Origin: Methanothrix soehngenii GP6
Lineage (GTDB): Archaea; Halobacteriota; Methanosarcinia; Methanotrichales; Methanotrichaceae
DNA: 64,000 nucleotides
Assembly: GCF_000204415.1 (NCBI RefSeq)
Contig: NC_015416.1
Span: forward strand, 2,604,001 to 2,668,000
Direction of reading: 5' to 3'
Position 1 is the first letter of the stretch, and each line of letters begins with the position of its first letter. The notes under the pieces were generated by a model. It saw only the letters and a list, made by a program, of their open reading frames with translations, had not been told where the DNA came from and made no database searches. Of the stretch, positions 26,404 through 47,750 are shown piece by piece. A program made the position numbers and the translations under genes.

Positions 26404-26540
26404 GTCATGTGTTCTTCTTGCCGCATTTTACTTTAATTTTTCTTAGATATGGAGTCTTTAAGAAAGCATCATATTTATATAAAAATTCATATGCAATGCC
26501 CGACCAAGGCCAAGAAGATCAAGTAAAGATCACATTTTTG

Positions 26541-26700
26541 GGCTCCTCGCTATCTAGAATGGGTGAACTTGAATCGCAAAAACTCTATGTCTCAGTGCCT
26601 CTATGGTAAACCGCGATGCTCTAACCCAACCACAGAGACACAGAGGAACAGAGGCTATAATCTCTGCCCGGACCTCACCCACATAATTCAGCGAAGAGCC
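26541..26700. mobile_element. MITE copy 1, with 8-bp target duplication
   Basis: This 160-bp element has imperfect terminal inverted repeats: GGCTCCTCGCT at the left and GGCTCTTCGCT (reverse complement) at the right, with similarity continuing through TGGGTGA to about 30 bases. It is flanked by perfect 8-bp direct repeats CATTTTTG at 26533-26540 and 26701-26708. The interior has no open frame of note and carries CCACAGAG/CACAGAGG motifs shared with the copies at 32264, 43876 and 47380. These are the hallmarks of a non-autonomous transposon. The GGCTCTTC ends and AT-rich 8-bp target recall ISL3-family elements (inference). Confidence 0.88.
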
Positions 26701-26750
26701 CATTTTTGCAGCCCGGAGTCATTCGCTCCCGATGTGGTTAATGAATATTT

Positions 26751-32188: not shown

Positions 32189-32263
32189 GAGCATGAGGAG
32201 AGATCAAAATAAGAGAGGGATGAAATTCGAGCCCTCCTGATTTCTTTTTTTCTTTTGTCTTAA

Positions 32264-32379
32264 GGCCTCTGTTCCTCTGCGCCTCTGCTGTTGGGTCAGA
32301 GCATCGCGTTTCACCACTAAGGCGAAGAGATACAGAGATTTTGCGATTCAGGTTCACCCATGCTAAATGGCGAGGAGCC
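32264..32379. mobile_element. MITE copy 2, truncated
   Basis: From GGCCTCTGTTCCTCTG onward this 116-bp stretch matches MITE copies 1 and 4 closely, through TTGGGTCAGAGCATCGCG and GAGATACAGAGATTTTGCG to the terminal repeat ATGGCGAGGAGCC. The opposite end (GGCTCTTCGCTGAATTAT) is absent, so no target duplication can be found. It is in the same orientation as the copy at 47380 and reversed relative to the one at 26541. Confidence 0.8.
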
Positions 32380-42794: not shown

Positions 42795-43493
42795 ATGAAG
42801 GACGCATCATCCAATTCCGCTGCCAAGAAGGCGGCAGGTGAGGCAGCGGCAGAGCTGGTCAGGAACGGTATGGTGGTTGGCCTGGGCACGGGCTCCACTG
42901 TGGCCTGGACGATAAAGAGGCTGGGAGAGAGGGTCAGAGAGGAGGATCTGGACTTTTGTGGCGTTCCCACCTCTTTTCAGGCCGAACAGCTGGCCATAGA
43001 ATCAAATATAAGGCTCACCAGCTTAAACCAGCATCCAGTTCTTGATCTGGCCATCGACGGGGCAGACCAGGTGGACATAAACCTGATGGTGATCAAGGGC
43101 GGCGGAGCGGCGCATACCCGGGAGAAGGTGGTATCCTGCTCGGCCAAGTGGTTCGTGATCGTTGCCGATCAGTCCAAGTTTGTAGAAAGACTAACCTGGC
43201 CGGTGCCTGTGGAGGTGATTCCCATCGCCTTTAGGCTAACAGGAAGGAGGCTGGAGGAACTGGGAGGCAAGCCGGTGCTGCGACAGGGATTGAGGAAGGA
43301 CGGGCCGGTGATCACCGATAACGGGAATTTCGTTATGGACGTGGACTTCGGGACCATCGAGGATCCCAGGTCTCTTGCGGCCAAGATCAGCCTCATTCCT
43401 GGAGTGGTGGAGCACGGCATATTCGATAACTTGGATGAGCTTTATCTCGCCCGGGCGGGAGGTATGGAAAGAATTAAAAGAGCTCTTCGCTGA
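42795..43493 (+). CDS. rpiA: Ribose-5-phosphate isomerase A
   Basis: This 232-residue enzyme interconverts ribose 5-phosphate and ribulose 5-phosphate. Signature segments are [34 protein letters not shown] and [13 protein letters not shown], with the catalytic aspartates and glutamate in place. The last four codons and stop (GCT-CTT-CGC-TGA) fall inside the terminal repeat of the mobile repeat at 43481, so its final residues come from the insertion. It could feed ribulose 5-phosphate toward RuBisCO, if a kinase is present elsewhere. Confidence 0.95.
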
Positions 43494-43974
43494 ATTATGT
43501 GGGTGAGTTCAAGCAGAGCTTTTCTCATAAGAAAGACCTGCGTATCATCAAGCTGAACGGTAATTTCGCTTGCTATCGCAGCAGCAACCGACTTCTTGTG
43601 AATATCCAGTCCACCACCTTTATCTAACTCTTTAGCCATAACTGATGCTGTCCTGATATGGGCAGATGACACAATCCCTCGTGGGACAAATTTTCCATTC
43701 GCGTTCAAGACGCATGCTTGTCTACGAGAGGTAAACATGGTTAGTTTGTGGGTTGGAATCAGAGTTCCAATGAGGCAGCAGCCTTCACTGCCCATATCAA
43801 GCATAACAGGGATACCAGGCTTATCACAGTTTTCATCCTGCTTGTATGATCCCTGTCCTGAGGATCATTCGAGTTTGTGGAAAGCCGCTATGCTCTGACC
43901 CAACCTCAGAGGCACAGAGGAATAAAAGGCAATATTCTCTGCCTGAACTCACTCAGATAATTCAGCGAAGAGCT
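43481..43974. repeat. Composite repeat: MITE ends in inverted orientation
   Basis: AGCTCTTCGCTGAATTATGTGGGTGAGTT... (43481-43518) recurs as its reverse complement at 43937-43974, 35 of 38 bases equal. Both are the same (left) end of the MITE family. The right half also holds about 100 bp of MITE interior (43876-43974). No 8-bp flanking repeat is found (ATTAAAAG against GGAATAGA). This is either a rearranged pair of MITEs or a longer element of 494 bp. The first bases supply the end of rpiA. Confidence 0.75.
43519..43639 (-). pseudogene. Possible IS110-type transposase N-terminal fragment
   Basis: A minus-strand frame starting at an ATG at 43639 reads MAKELDKGGGLDIHKKSVAA, resembling the RuvC-like start of IS110-family transposases (G-x-D-I/V-H-K). 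After about 25 codons the similarity ends and the frame runs into the MITE end. If right, the 200 bases upstream would be the leader of that element. The match is short and could be chance. Confidence 0.35.
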
Positions 43975-47354: not shown

Positions 47355-47379
47355 TATGATTCAGGCCAGTGCTATATTT

Positions 47380-47538
47380 GGCACTTCGCTGAATTATCTG
47401 GGTGAGTTCAGGCAGAGAATATGGCCTCTGTTCCTCTGTGCCTCTGTGGTTGGGTCAAAGAATAGTGGCTTTCCACAGAGGTGAAAAGATACAGAGAATT
47501 TCCGCTTCAAGTCCACCCATGCCAAATAGCGAGGAGCC
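47380..47538. mobile_element. MITE copy 4, with 8-bp target duplication
   Basis: This 159-bp element of the same family as 26541-26700 is in the opposite orientation. The left end reads GGCACTTCGCTGAATTAT, the right end GCCAAATAGCGAGGAGCC. Perfect 8-bp direct repeats CTATATTT flank it at 47372-47379 and 47539-47546. The interior carries GCCTCTGTTCCTCTGTGCC and TTGGGTCA as in the other copies. There is no coding capacity. Confidence 0.9.
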
Positions 47539-47750
47539 CTATATTTTATGAGTGTGCTATAATTTATTGTGGAACTAATAAGAAAGTAAATTAATTTAAA
47601 TTAGTAGTATGATTAATTCTGGCTGCGCGATGTTTCTTATTGTCGATTTTTATGGTTTATAAGATGGATTTGCACAGTGTTCTGATCAGAATGAACGTAA
47701 TCGTCTATTTAATTCCAGGTGGCTCATCAATGCAGCGAGGTTGAAGCTAA

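Follow-up and report, generated by a model that had tools for sequence, protein, structure and literature searches.

What moves a gene-less 160-bp element, flanked on both sides by the same octamer, in the chromosome of the methanogen Methanothrix soehngenii GP6 is the question raised by this locus. The element lies in a 64,000-nucleotide stretch of DNA that was analysed as a whole (the window), carried by the 3,008,626-bp chromosome of an assembly that also includes a second contig and totals 3,026,645 bases. It is, with high confidence, a non-autonomous ISL3-type MITE, very probably mobilised by a transposase that a resident full-size ISL3 element supplies.

Structure of the element and its copies in the window

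The copy at 26541-26700 (copy 1) starts with GGCTCCTCGCTAT and finishes with TCAGCGAAGAGCC. It lies downstream of an mscS-like gene, and further downstream comes a lysine 2,3-aminomutase-like (kamA-like) gene; both genes are on the minus strand and are named from their translations. The initial annotation had placed a 160-bp element here, between perfect octamers, and its coordinates proved exact. The imperfect inverted repeats that it described at the ends were also recovered (left GGCTCCTCGCTATCTAGAATGGGTGAACTT; right, as complement, GGCTCTTCGCTGAATTATGTGGGTGAGGTC). In the family, these terminal repeats measure about 25-31 bp, and the whole MITE, of about 160 bp, has no transposase gene inside. 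It forms a long imperfect hairpin (DNA fold z = -2.2), which corresponds to no catalogued RNA, a tRNA being the sole match in an Rfam scan of the window. The features are as follows:

26533..26540, no strand: left 8-bp target-site duplication CATTTTTG, based on the sequence and genome-wide statistics
26541..26700, plus strand: complete MITE copy 1, 160 bp, without a gene
26541..26571, plus strand: left terminal repeat of copy 1, resembling the ISL3 end upstream of the transposase gene (GGCTCCTCGCTATT...GGGT)
About 26582-26608: degenerate inverted copy of the interior motif in copy 1
26628..26655, plus strand: interior motif AACCACAGAGACACAGAGGAACAGAGGC of copy 1, common to foldback repeats of many phyla
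26670..26700, minus strand: right terminal repeat of copy 1 (GGCTCTTCGCTGAATTATGTGGGTGAG on the minus strand), resembling the ISL3 3' end
26701..26708, no strand: right 8-bp target-site duplication CATTTTTG
32260..32379, minus strand: truncated MITE copy, right end lost, without duplication
43482..43973, no strand: rearranged MITE copy without duplication, overlapping the 3' end of an rpiA-like gene
47372..47379, no strand: left 8-bp duplication CTATATTT of the second complete copy
47380..47538, minus strand: second complete MITE copy of the window
47539..47546, no strand: right 8-bp duplication CTATATTT of the second complete copy

The four loci initially counted in the 64 kb thus comprise two complete copies, with one of the other two being truncated and one rearranged. 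The latter, at 43482-43973, consists of two outward-facing right ends that enclose unrelated DNA and a MITE remnant. We considered this 492-bp copy as a gene-bearing master element and rejected it: its longest frame gave no family match in Pfam or NCBIfam, and the copy is therefore taken as a rearranged remnant. A frame inside it contains GLDIHKKSV, which is reminiscent of the start of an IS110 transposase, with no family match. The final codons of the rpiA-like gene at this site come from the MITE repeat.

Copies and target duplications in Methanothrix genomes

A BLAST search of the host genome with the element gave 41 listed matches, with 40 of 106 candidates scored. Pattern searches allowing up to 3 mismatches found 76 right ends and 58 left ends, while a reversed control pattern had zero matches. 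By pairing left and right ends in the genomic DNA examined, 56 near-complete copies were delimited in the 3.03-Mb genome, in agreement with the many genomic copies anticipated from the window. Flanking octamers were identical in 25 of the 56, and at least 7 of the 8 flank bases matched in 32, against 0.4 expected from mispaired flanks. In this control, where the left flanks of copies were combined with right flanks taken from different copies, 0.13% of the pairs were identical and 0.75% matched at 7 or more positions. None of the 56 copies had an exact flank match over 9 or 10 bases; therefore, the duplication is 8 bp long. These figures uphold the reading of the octamers as the product of transposition.

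The octamers are 79% A+T, compared with 50% in the genomic DNA examined and 54% in the neighbouring flanks, which bears out the AT-rich 8-bp target proposed at the outset. Only 8 of the 32 duplication-flanked copies lie within a long open frame, as opposed to 87% of random window positions. The targets of the MITE are, accordingly, AT-rich and mostly intergenic. Mean pairwise identity among the host copies is 83%, and they lie about 10% from the consensus, which indicates that most of them are old. Composite forms, found on the chromosome at 412214-412581, 996168-996637 and 2771310-2771667, are made up of a MITE, a foldback ending in ACCACAAAG and a second full or partial MITE, in this order. 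Each composite is flanked as a whole by octamers matching at 7/8 or 8/8 positions; thus, the MITE family can carry passengers.

We searched 26 Methanothrix genomes for the MITE and obtained matches in 14 of them (E <= 0.001), several in the interior only. In a sister species (G003), the MITE is present at 15 different sites, with 95-100% identity of the copies to a reference copy. Perfect 8-bp duplications border 13 of these copies, while another matches at 7/8 positions and the remaining one is cut at a contig end. The MITE has, therefore, been amplified recently in this species. In a related species (G005), the two genes that neighbour copy 1 (kamA-like and mscS-like) are found in synteny, and the shorter intergenic region between them lacks the element and contains a single CATTTTT. 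A relative without the element at the syntenic site was, thus, found, its intergenic DNA being too diverged to define a base-exact empty octamer.

The resident ISL3 partner and the probable mobilising enzyme

The initial annotation had noted that the ends fit the ISL3 family and had pointed to an ISL3 element of the same genome as a candidate mobiliser. A PF01610 search of the host genome retrieved three full ISL3-family transposases, belonging to three intact and essentially identical elements of 1302 bp. Their 417-aa frame contains the zinc ribbon, HTH and DDE domains of ISL3, with PF01610 (256 bits), PF13542 and PF14690 above cut-off, and scores 339 bits against the NCBIfam profile for ISL3 family transposases (NF033550; cut-off 180). 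The elements end in GGCTCCTCGCTATTCTCTGTGGGTAG and GGCTCCTCGCTGTTTCATGTGGGTAA, following the patterns GGCTCCTCGCTATT...GGGTA and GGCTCCTCGCTG...ATGTGGGTA, and are flanked by the 8-bp duplications GTTTATTG, AAATTCCA and TAATTTAG. The resident ISL3 element and the MITE, therefore, have in common their terminal 24-31 bp, an AT-rich 8-bp duplication and a left/right asymmetry, the A versus G after CGCT in the MITE mirroring that of ISL3. They differ in that the ISL3 element has a gene and a different interior, no interior sequence being common to both. The comparison of terminal repeats proposed at the outset, thus, came out in favour of this partner. The G003 genome has an ISL3 element with its own 8-bp duplication (GAAAAGGA), whose ends agree with 24/31 and 27/31 positions of the MITE consensus (the latter for the right terminal repeat), a closer fit than that of the host's own ISL3 ends.

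In the proposed mechanism, the ISL3-family transposase from a full-size element in the same cell would recognise the two unequal terminal repeats of the MITE, excise or copy it and insert it between genes at AT-rich targets, the octamer duplication then arising from repair of the 8-bp stagger. Given that the overlap between ISL3 and the MITE covers only about 24-31 terminal bases, we infer the binding of the transposase to the MITE, as well as the trans-mobilisation and its chemistry.

The same short overlap would leave room for a transposase of another family, also producing 8-bp duplications, to move the MITE, with the likeness to ISL3 ends being coincidental; the comparison of ends, moreover, was centred on ISL3. 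However, both ends, their left/right differences and the duplication length all match ISL3, and the co-occurrence of ISL3 and the MITE is repeated in G003 with even closer ends, which makes such an enzyme very unlikely. It is also conceivable that mobility resides in the interior ACCACAGAG motif, as part of a cross-phylum foldback family, and that the ISL3-like ends are passengers. The motif does genuinely match repeats found in about 18 phyla, and related foldbacks are present in the host genome. Nevertheless, the 8-bp duplications abut the ISL3-like ends rather than the motif, and the cross-phylum foldbacks have convergent ends and no duplication, whereas the motif pair of the MITE is divergent. 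The position of the duplications largely refutes this explanation, whose probability we consider minimal.

A static palindromic repeat (REP-like, terminator-like or regulatory), spread by recombination and bordered by octamers by chance, would account for the hairpin and the intergenic position. This scenario is contradicted by the duplications themselves, given the excess of matching octamers over the mispaired control, and by the roughly 15 near-identical copies of G003, placed at different sites and nearly all with perfect duplications; its probability is practically nil. Mobilisation of the MITE by the ISL3 transposase is, hence, the reading that we retain.

Elements of this kind have been described before. 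A MITE of 179 bp (IR 22, 6 copies) has been tied to ISMac21, of the ISL3 family, in Methanosarcina acetivorans, with a listed duplication of 7 bp (PMC3852290, Table 4), and many archaeal MITEs likewise have only their ends in common with the partner element (PMC3852290). Compared by description rather than by sequence, the ISMac21 MITE resembles the present one in its archaeal methanogen host, ISL3-type ends and similar duplication, and differs in copy number (6 versus the 56 delimited here) and in the listed duplication length (7 versus 8 bp). The MITE is, therefore, a fresh example of an already known kind of element. Regarding the novelty initially claimed for the family, a search of the literature, with ISfinder outside its scope, found no paper on this MITE; the claim stands to that extent and does not hold for the kind of element.

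The interior motif and the GxxExxY genes

The interior of the MITE does not come from ISL3. It contains ACCACAGAGRCACAGAGG, with at least 18 bases exactly matching foldback repeats of bacteria and archaea. Public genomes contain at least 118 stretches (L128-L245) with an exact copy of this motif preceded by one more A, and the matches listed span about 18 phyla, judged by record title. Among these matches, an inverted partner in convergent orientation lies within 1.5 kb of 109 of the 142 exact motif copies, usually at a distance of 27-250 bp, while a divergent partner accompanies only 11 of the 142. The flanks of these foldbacks showed no direct duplications and no strong excess of inverted flanks. 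The motif, thus, forms the convergent outer ends of the foldbacks, without target duplication, in contrast to the MITE, where the ACCACAGAG pair is internal and divergent; for this reason the MITE falls outside the foldback group. Since its interior holds a divergent pair of the cross-phylum motif, the MITE is chimeric, combining ISL3 ends with another repeat.

A literature search for the motif sequence found no description of a ACCACAGAGRCACAGAGG foldback repeat, which is apparently unnamed. Among 247 genomes of the phylum, two concentrate the motif (54 and 185 copies), a patchy distribution of the sort that characterises mobile DNA. The archaeal genome that holds 185 of them includes a locus (L329, G088:C1:108827-109019) built from a 35-bp unit that contains ACCACAGAGGCACAGAGG and is repeated six times in tandem. 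In cyanobacteria (L180, L195 and L207), the ACCACAGAG motif was seen by eye inside other palindromic repeats, such as AGGACTTACGCA...TGCGTAAGTCCT, a placement that resembles its position inside the ISL3 MITE.

Motif foldback loci (L278 263-777, L233 3964-4387, L236 7325-7772 and L167 2570-3049) sometimes enclose a GxxExxY (PF13366-like) gene. Five such genes were detected in the motif loci listed, all between two convergent motif copies, in two beta proteobacteria, one Bacteroidota, one Verrucomicrobia and one Diapherotrites; three of the genes, carried by elements of about 420-480 bp, are intact. The same arrangement is found in another Methanothrix genome (G023). Sequence identity among the GxxExxY proteins of bacteria and archaea amounts to 54-74%, and a D...ExK signature is retained. 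Of 29 GxxExxY genes in a broader set of archaea, 5-7 are accompanied by the motif at the anticipated position, compared with about 1 expected. GxxExxY was rejected as a general partner of the motif, since most of these archaeal genes lack a motif nearby and 95 viral-contig loci that carry the motif contained foldbacks but no GxxExxY gene. The association between GxxExxY and the motif is, therefore, real but partial.

Tentatively, the MITE interior might derive from an undescribed cross-phylum mobile element with ACCACAGAGRCACAGAGG inverted-repeat ends and no target duplication, although we regard this reading as a whole as rather doubtful. Its gene-bearing form, of about 420-480 bp, would encode only the GxxExxY protein, with its PD-(D/E)XK-like motif, which would move both this form and the common one, a gene-less foldback of 50-250 bp.

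The MITE offers a clean archaeal case of trans-mobilised elements, in which both partners are present and the duplications are exact; together with the fresh burst in the sister species, this makes ISL3 transposition testable in a methanogen. The interior repeat is a more novel lead than the MITE itself: a motif of at least 18 bases, nearly invariant over about 18 phyla and sometimes bracketing the same small gene, deserves a study of its own because no known enzyme accounts for it. Should the GxxExxY protein indeed move it, the element would represent a new class of tiny transposon.
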